From: Xylanibacter brevis ATCC 19188
GTDB lineage: Bacteria; Bacteroidota; Bacteroidia; Bacteroidales; Bacteroidaceae
Direction: 5' to 3'
DNA length: 64,000 bases
Assembly: GCF_000621725.1 (NCBI RefSeq)
Contig: NZ_JHXM01000014.1
Location: 62,001 to 126,000, forward strand
Positions 10,959-45,599 of the stretch are shown here, in pieces (the stretch's first letter is position 1; each line of letters starts with the position of its first letter). The notes beneath the pieces were generated by a model that saw nothing but the letters and a program-made list of their open reading frames with translations, did not search any database and was not told where the DNA came from. Both the position numbers and the translations under genes were made by a program.

Positions 10959-13577
10959 ATGAAGATAAAACACACCATATATTATTTGTTTGCAGCCATC
11001 GCACTGACGGCTTGCACCGCAGACGACGACGACATCGTGCTCTCTGACGAGCAGCAAGAGCTCATCGGTCAGGCCGTGCATTTCGATGCGTCGATGGCGG
11101 AACCTTTCACAACACGCGCCACCTATCGCCACGATGGCTCGTTCAACGAGGGCGACCAGATGCGCATCTTCCGTCAGTATGCCGATGCCACCGGCTCGAC
11201 GTTCCTCACTGACGGCGAGAACTTTCGCACTTACTACCAGAAGGTGAACTACGCCGCCGGCACCTCGGTGTCGCTCGATGCCGACTGGCTTCCCATGGCA
11301 GGCAAGCTGAAGTCTGATACCCTCGGAAGCACTGCCGTCCAGACCGCAGCCGACTCGCTGACCTGGGAGAACGGTAAGATTGTGCGTTTCCGTGCCTGGG
11401 GTCGCAGCAACCTGGCTGGTGCGCTGAGTGCTGGCACCAAAGGCAGTTACTATCCAGACTATACCATCTCTGACTGGGTGACGGTGTCGGGCCCCACGAA
11501 GAGTATTCCGCTCACCATGCGCCACATCACGTGTCGCATCGGTCTGACCTGCAAGGCCGGCAACGAGTTTGGCAGTGCAGAGATATGCACAGACTGGCAC
11601 GACTATAAGCGCCAGGATAATGCCGACACCAACGAACACGACGCGCTGGAGACAGACAAGAGCGACGAGCAAGCGCAGGCAGAGCTGGCCCAGGTGATGG
11701 CCGTCTATAACAAGATGTGCATGCCTGCCGGCGTTGACGACCAGACTTTCCTGTTGACCACCATGACTCAGGCTCTCTACGACGGCGCAACTACCGACTT
11801 TAAGAACCTGGAGAAATACACCGAGGCCGACGGTATCGTGAAGATTGGCACCAAGACGGCTGAGGAGATTGCCAACGAGGTGCAGCACCCCGTGTTCAAT
11901 GGCAACGACGGTCGCCTGTATATGATGTCTACCCCCATCGACATGAGCAGCAGCGATGCCGGTCAGGAACTGGTATTGCCTGCCTGCACCCGCTTCAAGG
12001 TGTGGCTCTACGACGTGAACAATGGCGACCGCCAGACCACCACGGGTACCACGGGCAGCGAGAGCAGCTATCATATCTTTGCGCTGAGCGACATCAAGAA
12101 CAGCAAGGGAGAGCCCCTCTTTGCCGACGGTCTGACGCTGAAGGCAGGCTATAGCTACCTGTTCAACGTGGGCTACCACTACGACAAGTTCACCATCACG
12201 CCCGCCGACAACTTCTCATGGGAAAAACAGGACCTGGGTTCACAGAATGCCGACAACAAGGCGGTGACGCAGAACGCCCTGGATTTCAGCTGGTGGACCA
12301 GCGCCTATGTCAAGGCAGCTAAAGAGGCGCTTTCCGGTGGTGACTTCCTACCAGAGTTCAGCATTGCCGACCAGACGCAGTTCGTCACCTTTATCAAACT
12401 TGTCAACGGCACTGCAGCCACTAGGATGACCGGACTGACACGTGGCGAGGTGCGCGGAACAGACCAGGATGGCTTTGAGACCTACTGGTGGATTTCCGAC
12501 ACCGAGACCGACGAGAACGGACAACCCAAACAATACACCAAGGCTGAGGCTGAGGCTGTGGGCTATGTGTTCTATCCCCACTTCTACCCCACGGTTTCTA
12601 CACAGGCTGCTCATGTGATTGAGGACTACGTGCAGGGCCCCATGGACTTCTACGACACCGACTTTGGCAATCGCTATCGGGTGAACCTCATGAGCGATCT
12701 GGACCTCTTCGACTGGGCGTTGCCCAGCATCGGCGAGGACAACAAAAAACCCTTCCGCGGCAACTTCCTGGGCCATGGCCACACGCTGCGCAACGTGAAC
12801 ATGCAGCGTGGCTATCTCTTCGACCACGTCATGGATGGAGCCATCAGCAACCTGAAGATAGAAAGCACACACCCCACCTGTCTGCTCAACACGGCTGTGG
12901 CCAGTGGCACCACGGGATGGGGCTGCTATATCGCCGGCATCTCGATGCTGTGCCCCAGCACCACCAACAGTATCGCCACCAGCCTCAGCGGCACCAGTTC
13001 GGTGGTGGGCTGCATCCACGTGGGCAAAGCCGGTGGCGCACTGGTTGGTTCGGCCGACAATCTCACCATGCTGGGCTGCATGCAGGCCGCTGCAGGCATC
13101 CCCACGGGCACTGGCGCATTGCTGGGCTCCTATGGTGCAGGAGCCAAGACCAGCTTCTTTGCACCTCTGTCAAAGAGCAGTCTGACGTGGGGCACGTTTA
13201 TGTGCAACTACTACGACGCGGAAAAGTCGCCCAAGACCAATGCCGTGGGCAGCACCACCGACGCCTATCTGCCCCAGCAATACATCCGCGGCAGGAAGTC
13301 GCACATCCTGAAGGCGAAGAACGACTACCTGCTCGGCTCTAGCGAGGACTACAATAAGCTGAATGCCAACATGAAGCAGGAGATCTACGGTGTGGCACCA
13401 TGGAGGGCCATGAACTATGCCATCGCTAAGTACAACGAGTCGAAGCTCGGCAAGGATTATCCCTGTGAGATGAAGTACAAGGCGTCGGAGGTGGGCTACA
13501 GTCACCTCTACCCCACACTGATCAATGGTGCACCCGCCATGGATGACAGTGCGAATCCTTTGGTGCAGAACAACTGA
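10959..13577 (+). CDS. Large fimbrillin-cluster lipoprotein with beta-helix-like C-terminus
   Basis: This 872-residue protein has the signal IALTAC with lipidated Cys19, then TADDDD. PFTTRATY (Arg53) lies 34 residues after the Cys. The N-terminal ~430 residues include GDQMRIFRQYAD and LTMRHITCRIGLTCKAG, strands comparable to those of the other fimbrillin-like members. From about residue 590 the sequence turns to GLUG-like repeats: FRGNFLGHGHTLRNVN, HVMDGAISNLKIES and GKAGGALVGSADNLTMLG. The ending GAPAMDDSANPLVQNN is polar. It starts 3 bp after the previous gene. It is likely a tip-type or surface adhesin using the same export and maturation path as its neighbours. Assignment to the fimbrillin family rests mainly on the N-terminal layout and context. 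Confidence 0.7.
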   Translation: MKIKHTIYYLFAAIALTACTADDDDIVLSDEQQELIGQAVHFDASMAEPFTTRATYRHDGSFNEGDQMRIFRQYADATGSTFLTDGENFRTYYQKVNYAAGTSVSLDADWLPMAGKLKSDTLGSTAVQTAADSLTWENGKIVRFRAWGRSNLAGALSAGTKGSYYPDYTISDWVTVSGPTKSIPLTMRHITCRIGLTCKAGNEFGSAEICTDWHDYKRQDNADTNEHDALETDKSDEQAQAELAQVMAVYNKMCMPAGVDDQTFLLTTMTQALYDGATTDFKNLEKYTEADGIVKIGTKTAEEIANEVQHPVFNGNDGRLYMMSTPIDMSSSDAGQELVLPACTRFKVWLYDVNNGDRQTTTGTTGSESSYHIFALSDIKNSKGEPLFADGLTLKAGYSYLFNVGYHYDKFTITPADNFSWEKQDLGSQNADNKAVTQNALDFSWWTSAYVKAAKEALSGGDFLPEFSIADQTQFVTFIKLVNGTAATRMTGLTRGEVRGTDQDGFETYWWISDTETDENGQPKQYTKAEAEAVGYVFYPHFYPTVSTQAAHVIEDYVQGPMDFYDTDFGNRYRVNLMSDLDLFDWALPSIGEDNKKPFRGNFLGHGHTLRNVNMQRGYLFDHVMDGAISNLKIESTHPTCLLNTAVASGTTGWGCYIAGISMLCPSTTNSIATSLSGTSSVVGCIHVGKAGGALVGSADNLTMLGCMQAAAGIPTGTGALLGSYGAGAKTSFFAPLSKSSLTWGTFMCNYYDAEKSPKTNAVGSTTDAYLPQQYIRGRKSHILKAKNDYLLGSSEDYNKLNANMKQEIYGVAPWRAMNYAIAKYNESKLGKDYPCEMKYKASEVGYSHLYPTLINGAPAMDDSANPLVQNN

Positions 13578-13612
13578 GAAGTGAGAGGTGAGAAGTGAGA
13601 GGTGAGAAGTGT
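13573..13612 (+). repeat. Tandem GTGAGAGGTGAGAA repeat between fimbrillin genes
   Basis: Two and a half copies of a 14-bp purine unit, GTGAGAGGTGAGAA, fill the gap between two genes of the cluster, overlapping the stop codon of the first. The unit matches the tails of the repeats at 5271-5326 and 40753-40816. Confidence 0.6.
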
Positions 13613-17217: not shown

Positions 17218-17291
17218 TGTTGTACAGAAAAAAAAATCTGCTGCCACAGAATATTCTTCAAAATAATGATGGTCTATTAAAAGATAATTTG

Positions 17292-17299
17292 TATCTTTG
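17292..17299 (+). promoter_or_regulatory. -7 box for xpt
   Basis: TATCTTTG matches the -7 consensus TAnnTTTG and lies 26 bp before the xpt start codon. A clear -33 TTG is not seen at the right distance. No purine riboswitch structure is visible in the short leader. Confidence 0.6.
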
Positions 17300-17324
17300 C
17301 CGACAAATCCTTAAATAGAAAGAC

Positions 17325-17906
17325 ATGGCACTAAAAGTATTGTGCGACCGCATCCTGTCAGACGGCCGCAGTCTGGAAGGCGCCATCCTGAAGGTTGACC
17401 GTTTCATCAACCATCAGATGGACCCCTACCTAATGAAACAGATAGCAGTAGAGTTCATACGTCGGTTCAACGACATTCAGCCCAACAAGATCCTGACGGT
17501 CGAGGCATCGGGCATCGCCCCCGCAGTGATGCTGGGCTACATGATGGAACTGCCCGTGGTCTTCGCCAAGAAGAAGCAGCCCTCCACCATGGACGACGCC
17601 TATGTAGCACTGTCGCACTCGTTCACCAAGGACAGCGACTGCCAATATATGGTCAGCCGCGAGTATCTCACGGCCGATGACCGCATCCTCTTTGTCGATG
17701 ACTTCCTGGCCTATGGCAATGCCGGCAAGGCCATCATCGACCTGTGCCAGCAGGCTGGCGCCACCATCGAGGGCATGGGCTTCATCATCGAGAAAGAGAT
17801 GCTGGGCGGGCGCCAGCGTCTGGAGGACGAAGGCATCAAGCGCATCGAATCGCTGGCTATCATCGACTCGCTCGAGAACAACGAGATACACATCAAGGAG
17901 GATTAG
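17325..17906 (+). CDS. xpt: Xanthine phosphoribosyltransferase
   Basis: This 193-residue cytosolic enzyme joins xanthine to PRPP to form XMP in purine salvage. The type I phosphoribosyltransferase PRPP loop is visible as [14 protein letters not shown] around residues 121-134. The N-terminal [15 protein letters not shown] and [11 protein letters not shown] (residues ~58-68) are characteristic of Xpt rather than of Hpt or Apt. Length is normal for the family. The gene has its own -7 box and no obvious downstream partner. The 22-bp palindrome array begins 33 bp after its stop and may lie in its 3' untranslated region. The function call is secure from these motifs. Confidence 0.93.
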
Positions 17907-17938
17907 GCTCGGTGGGCACACCGCGCTGAATAGATTCA

Positions 17939-18129
17939 GAAAGTGGCACTATGAACCGTCAAAAGCAGTCCTTTTGACTCGTTAAAGTGCCACTTTCGCT
18001 ATGCAATAGTGGCACTCTTGCTCTGATTCTAGACTCTAGAAACAGGCTTTCTAGACTTTAGAAATGGTCGTTCTAGACTCTGGATTTGGTGATTCTAGAC
18101 TCTAGAATTGCCTTTTCTAGAGTCTAGAA
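17939..18129. repeat. Nine-unit palindrome array with exact 22-bp spacing (locus A)
   Basis: Dyad centres fall at 17946, 17968, 17990, 18012, 18034, 18056, 18078, 18100 and 18122, every step exactly 22 bp. Units 1, 3 and 4 are AGTGSCACT dyads. Unit 2 is GTCAAAAG-CAGTC-CTTTTGAC. Units 5-9 are TTCTAGACTCTAGAA or close variants, the last with the centre base flipped. The 7-bp spacers between units 5-9 (ACAGGCT, ATGGTCG, TTGGTGA, TTGCCTT) share no sequence. GAAAGTGGCACT at 17939 and AGTGCCACTTTC at 17986 can also pair over a distance. The array lies between xpt and the GH92 promoter. The rest of this 384-bp gap holds a small TGCC-GAAA-GGCA hairpin at 18155 and the promoter. Confidence 0.85.
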
Positions 18130-18236: not shown

Positions 18237-18268
18237 TTTGGTAGTCTCGTGCAAAAGACTTAACTTTG
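18237..18268 (+). promoter_or_regulatory. Promoter for the GH92 gene
   Basis: TTTG at 18237-18240 and TAACTTTG at 18261-18268, separated by 20 bp, match the Bacteroidetes -33/-7 pattern. The start codon lies 22 bp further on. Confidence 0.8.
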
Positions 18269-18290: not shown

Positions 18291-20450
18291 ATGATTAAAA
18301 GCCTTGACATGAGAAAATTATTTGTATTTTCCGCAATTATCGCATCTACATGCATGGTGACCATTTCTGCAATGGCACAACGACTGACATCTTTTGTTGA
18401 CCCCTATATTGGCTCGGGCGGCCACGGCCACGTGTTTGTGGGTGCCAACGTGCCGTTTGGCATGGTTCAGCTGGGCCCCACCGAGAAATCGCGCGGCTGG
18501 GACTGGACCTCGGGCTATCACTATAGCGACTCTATCATCGTGGGCTTTGCCCACCTGCACCTCAGCGGCACGGGCTGCGGCGACCTGGGCGACCTGGCAC
18601 TGCTGCCCATCAGCAATGTGCAGCAGCGCGACATTCACTTCAAACACAGTCAGGAGACCGTGGCACCGGGCTACTATCGTCTGAAGACCAGCGACGTGGA
18701 CGTGGAGCTGACCAGCACCAAACGTGTGGGCATGCACCGCTACACGTTCAGCGGCAAGAACGGTCTGCTGCGCATAGACCTGAACGAGGGCGTCGGCGAC
18801 GAGCTGACGGCTGCCGACCTGCGCCAGGTGGACGACTGCACCCTGGAGGGCTACCGCAAGTCGCGCGGATGGGCACCGCGTCAGGAAGTGTACTTCACCA
18901 TCACGTTCAACCAACCTGTCCGTCTATGGGAGCCTCAGCCCGGCGAGGGCATCGTGGACCTGAAAGACACCAGTCGCCCCGTGCTGGTGAAGGTAGCGCT
19001 GTCGCCCGTGAGCAGCGAGAAGGCGCATCAGAACATGACGGCCGAACTGCCCGGTTGGGACTTCGACCAGGTGCGCCGCGATGCGGATGCTGCCTGGGAG
19101 CGTGAACTGGCGCGCGTAAAGATTGAGACCGCCAACGTGCAGGACAAGAAGATCTTCTACACGTCGATGTATCACCTCATGGTGGCTCCCTCGGAGTTCT
19201 GCGATGTGGACCGCCAGTATCGCGGCAGCGACGGCAGGGTGTACAACGGCGACTTCACCAACTACACCACCCTCTCGCTCTGGGACACCTATCGCGCCTT
19301 CCACCCGCTGATGACGCTCATTTACCCCGAGCTGCAGGCCGACTATGCCGAGACGTTCATCAAGATATTCGAACAGCAGGGCCGTCTGCCCATCTGGCAC
19401 CTGTGGGGCTCGGAGACCGACTGCATGGTGGGCTCTTCGGCCGTGCCCGTGCTGGCCGACCTGGCCCTGAAGGGCTTTGTGCGCAACCCCGAGCAGGCTT
19501 TCAACGCCATGAAGACCTCGCAGTTGCAGGACGTGCGCTCGCTGGGACTGCTAAAGAAGTATGGCTTCATCCCCTACGACAAGGAACCGGCCAACGAGAC
19601 CGTGGCCAAGGCGCTGGAGTACTGTCTGGACGAAGACGGACTGGCACGCGTGGCCAAGCAGTTGGGACATGAGGAAGACTACCAGTATTTCTTCGACCGC
19701 AGCCGTTCCTACAAGAAATACTTCGACCGCGACATCCAGTTCATGCGTGCACTGGGCAGCGACGGACAGTTCCGTCCGGAGTTCGACCCCATCAAGGTGA
19801 TTCACCGTGCCGACGACTATACCGAGGGTAATGCCTGGCAGTACACCTGGCTGGTGCCCCACGATGTGCACGGACTCATCGGCCTCTTTGGCAGCGAGAA
19901 GCAGTTCCTCAAGAAGCTCGACGAGTTCTTCGTGACCGAGGGCGACATGGGTCCCGAGGCTTCGCCAGACATCAGCGGCTTCATTGGCCAGTATGCTCAC
20001 GGCAACGAGCCCAGCCACCACATCATCTACCTCTACAACTACGCCGGACAGCCCTGGAAGGCAGCACCCAAGCTGCGCTATGTGATGCGCAAGCTCTACC
20101 ATGCCGAGCCCGACGGACTTTGCGGCAACGAGGACGTGGGCCAGATGTCGGCTTGGTATATCCTGTCGTCACTCGGCCTCTATCAGGTGGAGCCTAGTGG
20201 TGGCCGCTTCATCATGGGCACCCCGCTGTTTGCCAAGGCCCAAGTGAACGTGGGCAACGGCAAGACGCTGCAAATCACGGCACGCAACCTGAGCGACAAG
20301 AACATCTACGTGCAGGGTGTGCGCCTCAACGGCAAGAAATACACCAAGACCTACGTTGATTTCGACGTGCTGCGCCAGGGTGGCACCCTCGAGTTCCAGA
20401 TGGGTCCACGACCCTCGAAGTGGGGCACAGCCATTGCCGACCGTCCATAA
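18291..20450 (+). CDS. GH92 alpha-mannosidase, secreted
   Basis: A 719-residue glycoside hydrolase family 92 protein, a family of Ca-dependent exo-alpha-mannosidases that trim N-glycan mannose. The N-terminal signal peptide ends near ISAMAQ. Translation may begin at 18291 or at the ATG at 18309, which gives a more typical signal. Family hallmarks in order: FVDPYIGSGGHGHVFVG, NVPFGMVQLGP, GFAHLHLSGTGC, WGSETDCMVG, EGNAWQYTWLVPHDV, HGNEPSHHIIYLYNYAG and GNEDVGQMSAWYILSSLG. The E-P-S-H-H stretch is conserved in active members. Codons are GC-rich. It is followed 46 bp later by a secreted esterase on the same strand. Linkage specificity cannot be read from sequence. Confidence 0.93.
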   Translation: MIKSLDMRKLFVFSAIIASTCMVTISAMAQRLTSFVDPYIGSGGHGHVFVGANVPFGMVQLGPTEKSRGWDWTSGYHYSDSIIVGFAHLHLSGTGCGDLGDLALLPISNVQQRDIHFKHSQETVAPGYYRLKTSDVDVELTSTKRVGMHRYTFSGKNGLLRIDLNEGVGDELTAADLRQVDDCTLEGYRKSRGWAPRQEVYFTITFNQPVRLWEPQPGEGIVDLKDTSRPVLVKVALSPVSSEKAHQNMTAELPGWDFDQVRRDADAAWERELARVKIETANVQDKKIFYTSMYHLMVAPSEFCDVDRQYRGSDGRVYNGDFTNYTTLSLWDTYRAFHPLMTLIYPELQADYAETFIKIFEQQGRLPIWHLWGSETDCMVGSSAVPVLADLALKGFVRNPEQAFNAMKTSQLQDVRSLGLLKKYGFIPYDKEPANETVAKALEYCLDEDGLARVAKQLGHEEDYQYFFDRSRSYKKYFDRDIQFMRALGSDGQFRPEFDPIKVIHRADDYTEGNAWQYTWLVPHDVHGLIGLFGSEKQFLKKLDEFFVTEGDMGPEASPDISGFIGQYAHGNEPSHHIIYLYNYAGQPWKAAPKLRYVMRKLYHAEPDGLCGNEDVGQMSAWYILSSLGLYQVEPSGGRFIMGTPLFAKAQVNVGNGKTLQITARNLSDKNIYVQGVRLNGKKYTKTYVDFDVLRQGGTLEFQMGPRPSKWGTAIADRP

Positions 20451-40752: not shown

Positions 40753-40816
40753 GTGCGGCTTTGCCGCAAGATGAGAGGTGAGAACTGAGAGGTGAGAACT
40801 GAGAGGTGAGAGATAT
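40753..40816 (+). repeat. GTGCGGC hairpin plus GTGAGAACTGAGAG repeats
   Basis: GTGCGGCTTTGCCGCAAGAT forms a GTGCGGC/GCCGCA hairpin and is followed by nearly three copies of GAGAGGTGAGAACT. It is very similar in head and tail to 5271-5326. It occupies most of the gap between bamA and the first ompH-like gene. Confidence 0.65.
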
Positions 40817-44636: not shown

Positions 44637-44714
44637 CAAGTAAGCAAGCTCCAGGTTTCAGGGCTCAGTAGAAATTTAGTGGGCTCAGTTGCAATTGCGT
44701 AGGTTTCGCGATGC

Positions 44715-45011
44715 TCCCAGAGTCTTGAATTGGCATTTCCAGAGTCTGGAGAGGGTCGTTTTAAAGTCTAAAAGCACGTATTCTTAAGTCTAGAAGAGGC
44801 ATTTCTGAAGTCTAAAACCGAAGCTATCATTTCTGGTCTAGCCCCTGGATGCTCTACATCCAGCCCTTAGAACAACCGCATCCAGGGGCTAAAACGACTC
44901 GTTTCAGGGGCTGAATGCGCCACATCTAGGGGCTAGACGGACATCAAAAGTAAAGCTATTACAACGCAAAAGCGAAACTATAACAAGACGAAAGCAGCAC
45001 TATGACAGTGC
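44715..45011. repeat. Palindrome array with 22-bp spacing, three blocks (locus B)
   Basis: Block 1 has five dyads centred at 44722, 44744, 44766, 44788 and 44810; examples are TCCAGAGTCTGGA, TTTTAAAGTCTAAAA and TTCTTAAGTCTAGAA. Block 2 has five dyads centred at 44843, 44865, 44887, 44909 and 44931 around a GGGGCT or AGCCC core, such as TTCAGGGGCTGAA and TCTAGGGGCTAGA. Block 3 has three CTATnACA units centred near 44960, 44982 and 45004, the last extended to GCACTATGACAGTGC. Spacing within each block is exactly 22 bp; block junctions are 33 and 29 bp. Block 1 is the reverse complement of the TTCTAGACT units at 18027-18129. Upstream, GGGCTCAGT occurs twice 20 bp apart (44661, 44681). Confidence 0.8.
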
Positions 45012-45038
45012 GAAACCGTTCCTATTCCGACCAAGAAC

Positions 45039-45339
45039 AACCCCACCACGACTCTCCCTCTGGAGGGCTGGGCTGTTTTTTTAACCAAAACCGTGAAAAC
45101 CCGCTTCTGTTGTTGATGGTCCTTCGGCCCATCGGTTTGTTGCCAATGCTTCATCGAAGTCAAGCAAGCTTGCCTTCGCCGCCGCATTACCCCCAAACCG
45201 CCTGTCGGCTGCAACAACAGAAGCGAAAAACCAAGAAAACCGCCTACGGCTTGGTAAATATTAACTGTGAGTAAGGCTTTAGGAGTCAGATTGGAAAGGA
45301 CAGAATTACTCCCTCCCTTGGGAGGGCCGGGGTGGGGTT
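45039..45339. mobile_element. MITE-like element with inverted ends
   Basis: AACCCCACC (45039-45047) and GGTGGGGTT (45331-45339) are inverted ends of a ~301-bp segment. Next to each end is a self-palindrome, CCCTCTGGAGGG on the left and CCCTCCCTTGGGAGGG on the right. CCAA flanks the left end and TTGG the right. Inside, CGCTTCTGTTGTTG (45102-45115) and CAACAACAGAAGCG (45212-45225) form a 14-bp inverted repeat. Short open frames here on both strands have no family resemblance and are composed of repeat sequence. No transposase is present. A target-site duplication was not seen. Confidence 0.5.
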
Positions 45340-45377
45340 CCCCCATTGGTTTTCAGGACCGAAGGTCCGTGGTTTTT

Positions 45378-45504
45378 CCTTTGTGAGACAGAAAGCCCCA
45401 AAGGGGGCATGGTGTCAGTGGGAAGCTTGATGTGAACCTGTTCACAAGAAGGATTACCACTGACACCATGAAAGGCTCGACAGAGACTTCTGCCTCACAA
45501 AGGG
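45378..45504. repeat. Long compound hairpin in the gene-free region
   Basis: CCTTTGTGAGACAGAA (45378-45393) pairs with TTCTGCCTCACAAAGG (45489-45504), with one wobble. Inside, ATGGTGTCAGTGG (45409-45421) pairs perfectly with CCACTGACACCAT (45457-45469), and within that TGTGAAC-CT-GTTCACA (45431-45446) forms a third stem. GCCCC-AAAG-GGGGC adds a side hairpin at 45395-45408. It looks like a structured RNA or DNA element. No family is recognised. Confidence 0.6.
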
Positions 45505-45507
45505 GTA

Positions 45508-45599
45508 TTCTCGGTTTTTGTTCAATAAACACAAACTGAAAACACGAAAGGTCTCAGAAAACTGCGTTTCTCGGTTTTGTTCAATAAACACAGACTGAA
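45508..45599. repeat. Pair of 32-33 bp direct repeats
   Basis: TTCTCGGTTTTTGTTCAATA onward (45508-45540) recurs as TTCTCGGTTTTGTTCAATAA onward (45568-45599). The copies differ by one T in the run and one A/G near the end (CACAAACTGAA, CACAGACTGAA). A further hairpin follows at 45607-45647, with CAAGCGAAAA pairing to TTTTCGCTTG. No gene is associated. Confidence 0.65.

Follow-up and report, generated by a model that had tools for sequence, protein, structure and literature searches.

What is a row of nine short palindromes, with centres exactly 22 bp apart, doing between two genes of Xylanibacter brevis ATCC 19188? Bacteria have long posed the puzzle of palindromic repeats that are regularly spaced and have no clear purpose. 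The row lies in a stretch of 64,000 nucleotides, here called the window. A reading of the sequence alone had suggested a protein that reads dyads along one DNA face, or else an ordered multi-hairpin transcript, rather than simple tandem duplication. Below, G000 is the genome of the window, G117 is its sister genome, and L numbers denote loci.

The nine dyads and their neighbourhood

Three dyads occur in the arrays of this genome, A (AAAGTGSCACTWT), B (TTCTAGASTCTAGAA) and C (TTCTAGSSSCTAGAA). The features around the first array (array 1) are as follows.

17325..17906, + strand: gene for a phosphoribosyltransferase-like protein to the left of array 1 (xpt in the sequence-only reading); Pfam Pribosyltran score 23 bits, below the cut-off of 26.3
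17939..18019, no strand: four A-class units, centres 17946, 17968, 17990, 18012; one extra A unit in G117
18027..18129, no strand: five-B block, centres 18034, 18056, 18078, 18100, 18122; in G117 five C units in equal register
18237..18268, + strand: promoter-like TTTG...TAACTTTG, ahead of the GH92 gene; identical in G117
18291..20450, + strand: GH92 glycosidase gene, right of array 1

All nine proposed centres were borne out, i.e. each dyad is odd-centred, has 5-7 of 7 complementary pairs (offsets 1-7) and follows its neighbour in an exact 22-bp step. The number of pairs is 5 at 17946, 6 each at 17968, 17990 and 18012, 7 at 18034, 6 at 18056, 5 at 18078 and 7 at both 18100 and 18122. The positions flanking the nine centres have 2-4 pairs, and six or more pairs are seen at just 0.16% of window positions. 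The view that one register runs through different dyad sequences was likewise upheld, also at the orthologous locus with its five C units for five B units. Of the three palindrome sequences named for this array, differing dyads are indeed present, but GTCAAAAG/CTTTTGAC is probably not a separate kind; it sits at the expected place of an A-class unit and looks like a variant of it. The spacers had been called unrelated, which is too strong: among 214 B/C spacers, position 3 is a purine in 84% and position 5 a pyrimidine in 80%, so they are not fully random. Nor is 17939-18129 the whole extent of the element, as there is a second array in the window and there are dozens in the genome.

At the G117 locus, which is 86% identical over 1015 bp, the xpt-like gene is absent and the array has one A unit more. 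Window 17223-17943, which holds this gene and the region ahead of it, is unmatched at the syntenic locus, and one break falls at the edge of the array. The register of array 1 is kept there, and no broken register was found in G117. The spacers of the B units and of the C units opposite them are alike at 15 of 28 positions, a value reached by 1.5% of random spacer sets. On this comparison a change from B to C in place appears likelier than a replacement. Array 1 ends about 110 bp upstream of the TTTG...TAACTTTG motif, which we take to resemble the Bacteroidota -33/-7 promoter consensus.

Repeats of other kinds were also seen. Two ruminant Prevotella MAGs have 19-bp tandem repeats (AATTCGTGAAATCAAAGAC and its reverse complement; L091 3403-3560 and L093 3703-3920) upstream of the GH92 gene, i.e. 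at the place of array 1 in the window. Two related 14-bp tandem repeats (TGAGAAGTGAGAGG / TGAGAGGTGAGAAC) lie 27 kb apart in the window, at 13575-13611 and 40772-40811.

Arrays elsewhere in the genome and in its relatives

The distribution of such rows was investigated with a sequence-unbiased scan of 464 kb, made up of the window and 20 stretches of its own genome (13 near blastn hits and 7 blind), for rows of five in-register dyads. At a score of at least 24 of 35 the scan found 18 sites at period 22, one at 19 and none at the other periods between 16 and 30, against 0 sites in one first-order Markov simulation. Four of the seven blind stretches had a site. Together with the genus scan below, this places the runs above chance frequency. 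Blastn of the arrays against their own genome gave dozens of places, the weakest with E near 0.6.

The second array of the window, at about 44690-45063, has B, C and A-like units and belongs to a dispersed element of about 375 bp:

44682..45057, no strand: array-2 extent common to G117 loci (non-orthologous L186, L191 and L193, 88-94% identity; further copy L210; orthologous L205, 96% identity)
44690..44711, no strand: 22-bp unit TGCAATTGCGTAGGTTTCGCGA before array 2; similar 22-bp repeats stand ahead of the array in L034
44715..44817, no strand: degenerate B-like block, centres 44722, 44744, 44766, 44788, 44810
44818..44835, no strand: separator; the flanking dyad centres are 33 bp (1.5 units) apart, and similar separators lie between B and C blocks elsewhere
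44836..44938, no strand: C block of five, centres 44843, 44865, 44887, 44909, 44931
44942..45041, no strand: A-like units, the last ones degenerate

In the orthologue of array 2 one two-sided difference preserves its dyad, but others break dyads. The G117 copies at L186, L191 and L193 have equal spacers and different left ends, and the copy at L210 lies beside a Y1 gene. Comparison of these loci indicates that whole arrays are copied to new places. The L193 copy occupies the place of an EamA transporter gene of G000, of which just the end is left in G117, i.e. this is not a clean insertion.

Other dispersed sequences adjoin the arrays. Window 45076-45509 (about 430 bp) is another dispersed intergenic repeat, 94% identical to L063 14061-14496 of the same genome and absent from the G117 orthologue. 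A repeat of about 150 bp (L193 8814-8954, L186 16895-17041, L219 521-656) adjoins some arrays and stands alone at L219. In G117 a hairpin with CATGGGGACAGG arms lies between the Y1 transposase gene and a truncated array (L210 1958-2270).

It is conspicuous that blocks of five dominate. Among 54 B/C runs of at least three units in G000 and G117, counted after copies and overlapping windows were taken out, 42 have five units, 7 have four, 3 have eight and 2 have three. At the listed loci, adjoining B and C blocks with a separator (like CAAARCAATAGTTTC) start 121 bp apart, which leaves 33 bp between the neighbouring dyads. The centres of C dyads are nearly always CCC or GGG. In 25 C blocks, related copies among them, unit 1 is CCC 22 times and unit 5 is GGG 22 times, which gives the whole block a two-fold symmetry. 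CCC and GGG swap blockwise, and mixed centres (CCG/GCC) are found in just 3 of 155.

The arrays are intergenic: none of the 42 non-redundant arrays of G000 and G117 has its midpoint inside an ORF of at least 90 aa. After copies and overlapping windows were dropped, the flanking genes were convergent for 17 of them, tandem for 17 and divergent for 8, compared with 27, 94 and 38 of 159 background gaps, which include the array-holding gaps (p 0.003 for convergent). Convergent placement was seen in 7 of 21 rows in G350 and in 3 of 15 in G016, i.e. with no convergent preference in G016; some places are doubled in these rows (L307 with L280, L314 with L284, L295 and L296 with L268, L302 with L267). 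The arrays of both genomes appear to sit inside MITE-like elements. G350 has at least 40 copies of an element of about 230 bp (40 of 40 candidates scored, of 153), and the 12 aligned copies have conserved, inverted-looking ends of the TATATTTATGCA type around four full dyads. In G016 an array with a conserved tail has 42 matches at about 40 places.

A column scan of the noncoding DNA in 1.57 Mb from 13 genomes of the genus, G000 among them, found 63 arrays at period 22 (control 1), but just 2 at 21 and 3 at 23 (control 0 for each); known hits had guided the choice of 6 of the 20 stretches from G117 and of one from G076. Periods 12 (38, control 12) and 14 (16, control 3) were also rich. G004 had no array in 140 kb, therefore the element is dispensable. 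A covariance model built from G000 and G117 blocks had matches in 71 of 398 genomes of the genus, these two included, and in 10 of 393 across the order, G000 included. Blastn of array 1 matched 3 of 120 genus genomes, its own included, a count that understates the class because the dyads differ. The dyads of other genomes include TTCCA-N5-TGGAA, GGAAC..GTTCC, TACCA..TGGTA, AATTTGATGCAAATT, AAAAGTTSAACTTTT and GGTAAT..ATTACC, and the geometry is unchanged. The dyad arms are too different between genomes for one conserved regulator to read them all.

The eight inspected matches outside the genus all had a best period of 21, two of them (L329, L336) resembling 7-bp repeats, and one Bacteroides array has period 23. 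In 80 named loci 24 noncoding sites passed the 0.5 threshold, several of which turned out to be weak dyads or common repeats of short period (L101, L119), and 12 were at periods 21-23 (control 1). Of 28 inspected loci, L227, L239, L240 and L249 were without dyads in the displayed row. In several related genomes (L230, L237, L238, L244, L245) the spacer is repeated along with the dyad, so the arrays probably arose by duplication of a 22-bp unit. The contrast originally drawn with simple tandem duplication is therefore only half right.

Constraint on the dyads and the hairpin reading

Arrays found by pairing alone were compared for likeness within each array. Arms and spacers were alike at 65% and 32% in G000 (n=17), 55% and 28% in G117 (n=11) and 77% and 43% in G350 (n=13); the arm values are lowered by the presence of more than one dyad class in an array. 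Blocks picked by pattern gave 82% for arms and 34% for spacers, with an invariant A5-T11 pair. These values are circular in part and prove little, because the pattern fixes A5 and T11 and permits just C/T or A/G at six arm positions. Covariation exceeded that of shuffles modestly (68 cells vs 50.4 +- 5.9).

Over 38 near-copy block pairs, differences were seen at 5.2% of arm, 3.0% of centre and 15.4% of spacer positions; the pairs are not independent, and the distant ones were selected partly by arm likeness. In the 25 closest pairs (at least 96 of 103 positions alike) the values were 3.3% for arms and 5.6% for spacers, i.e. about 1.7-fold, which means that recent constraint is weak. In other words, the contrast between arms and spacers comes mostly from the distant pairs. 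Both sides of an arm pair had changed 14 times, several of these being one event in several comparisons, and one side 70 times.

If the dyads acted as ordered hairpins in a transcript, as a 3' UTR stabiliser, a terminator or a small RNA, the five hairpins of a block could fold, and the preference for convergent gaps in G000 and G117 would suit such a role. Selection at the RNA level would predict G.U pairs well above A.C pairs. In 26 blocks between tandem genes we counted 536 Watson-Crick, 46 G.U, 53 A.C and 5 other cells on the sense strand as presumed from the neighbouring genes, i.e. no excess of G.U (p 0.55), with a block pattern that admits G.U and A.C equally and few other mismatches. 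The asymmetry between the two instead tracks the centre base (35 G.U and 20 A.C in C-centred units, 11 and 33 in those centred on G; p 0.0002), and CCC and GGG units stand together on one strand. This asymmetry and the two-fold symmetric C blocks suit double-stranded reading. Neither the window nor any of nine loci searched matched an Rfam family at its gathering score. The multi-hairpin transcript proposed at the outset therefore fares badly, and we consider it very improbable. A described RNA family was dropped on the Rfam result, and arrays of guide RNAs, as in CRISPR or TIGR systems, were dropped on a general comparison.

Known systems and the origin of the arrays

In the literature searched, with most subscription journals outside reach, no 22-bp phased dyad array was found in Prevotella. 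The nearest system is BrickBuilt, a MITE of Porphyromonas gingivalis, in which a leader and a tail enclose an array of 23-nt repeats (PMC4596501). Its repeat is a single sequence, known from P. gingivalis and P. gulae, that occurs 1 to 22.8 times without spacers; 22-nt tandem repeats in strain W83 are also mentioned. Both systems are dispersed, intergenic repeat arrays of Bacteroidales, whereas the present units consist of a dyad and a spacer, come mostly in fives, mix B with C and have many sequences unrelated to each other. Conserved flanks were found in the 12 aligned G350 copies and a conserved tail in G016.

REP/BIME elements are described as dispersed intergenic palindromes with mosaic unit types, genome-specific families and regular unit spacing (PMC2817692, PMC3733652). 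The arrays share these traits, including the many copies per genome. The arrays differ in their 15-bp odd dyads, their 22-bp register (often 21 outside the genus) and their blocks of mostly five. A Y1 gene is present in the array-bearing G000, G117 and G016, and array-bearing G003 has no Y1 match.

Targets of Lrp/AsnC proteins are clustered inverted repeats of 13-17 bp with centres two or three helical turns apart, on which an oligomer wraps the DNA (PMC2995911, PMC10201364). The arrays share this repeat size and spacing. They differ in that there are dozens per genome, with species-specific sequence, and 1-3 PF01037 genes per genome. PF01037 is present in 11 of 11 genomes, including array-free G004, and does not separate array-bearing from array-free genomes; as a pointer to the array protein it was set aside as uninformative. 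Lrp-type regulators demonstrate that such a geometry can work, but nothing here ties an Lrp protein to the arrays.

The explanation we prefer, at a little short of an even chance, is that the array is a copy of a dispersed intergenic element of the BIME/MITE kind, with a core that is a row of putative sites for a dimeric, sequence-specific protein. In its strongest competitor, Y1 (RAYT-like) transposases, enzymes that bind hairpins of single-stranded DNA and spread them, would use the arrays as substrates of the REP/BIME type, and the arrays would have no host function. PF01797 matches were found in 6 of 7 genomes tested, and an array lies within about 1.5 kb of 5 of 9 Y1 places in G000, G016 and G117 (L209, L213, L345, L210, L347), where about 1.4 of 9 would be expected by chance (a hand estimate from array densities). 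The copies are also dispersed and genome-specific, as REPs are. However, the G016 places are partly duplicates (L209 matches L213 at 96% over 925 bp), which makes the count non-independent, and G003, which is 99% complete, has a matching array and 22-bp arrays with no PF01797 match at E <= 0.001. We regard this account as unlikely, and we would put at the same level the possibility that the arrays are neutral minisatellites, in which slippage makes the 22-bp repeats, copying spreads them and hairpin-promoted slippage and template switching let the palindromes persist. The spacers repeated along with the dyads at the five loci named above, the one A unit gained or lost in array 1 and the merely 1.7-fold lower arm rate of close copies are in line with neutrality, and the blockwise swap of CCC and GGG is as expected of hairpin-mediated inversion. 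Neutrality accounts less well for the arm/spacer contrast over all 38 near-copy pairs, for five B against five C units at one locus, for the dominance of exactly-five blocks (42/54) and for a single period shared by unrelated unit sequences in many genomes.

Under the preferred explanation, a row of sites for a dimeric protein, each 15-bp dyad would be the site of one dimer. Sites 22 bp apart, or 33 bp between B and C blocks, would put neighbouring dimers on nearly one face of the DNA, where they could touch. The block of five would be the working or assembly unit, and about 9-17 dimers could coat or wrap 200-375 bp. The units would have arisen by tandem duplication of the 22-bp repeat, the dyads later being kept better than the spacers. 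Species would share the geometry and differ in the recognition sequence, which probably changed even inside one locus (B to C). The analysis demonstrates the register, the blocks of five, the dispersal, the recurrence across the genus with other dyads, spacers that diverge faster than arms and no mark of constraint at the RNA level; we infer the protein, its cooperative assembly and any effect on neighbouring genes, which may be insulation, supercoil buffering or element mobility. Counting against the explanation are the dyad arms, too different between genomes for one conserved reader, the weak recent constraint, the modest covariation, the missing convergent preference in G016 and the array-free 140 kb of G004. 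The original idea of a protein reading dyads along one DNA face is sustained as far as the two-turn register across dyads is concerned, but no such protein was found.

A more specific version, which we regard as unlikely, would make the five-dyad block a chromosome-wide docking platform, on which five dimers of a fast-evolving putative DNA-binding protein form a two-fold symmetric complex over about 110 bp, with dyad turnover between species, an in-place B-to-C switch and a 21/22-bp architecture kept across Bacteroidales. Dozens of arrays were found per genome, and about a hundred are estimated by extrapolation. Were this version true, each genome would have about that many platforms of a nucleoid or insulation system not described before.

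What is kept is the geometry, i.e. a 15-bp dyad, a spacing of 21 or 22 bp and often five units, and not the sequence, which means that the constraint is separable from ancestry and that the protein that reads it should be findable. If the arrays are instead a mobility signal, the elements would explain how repeats come to be scattered through the intergenic DNA of Prevotella and how genes disappear at element edges.
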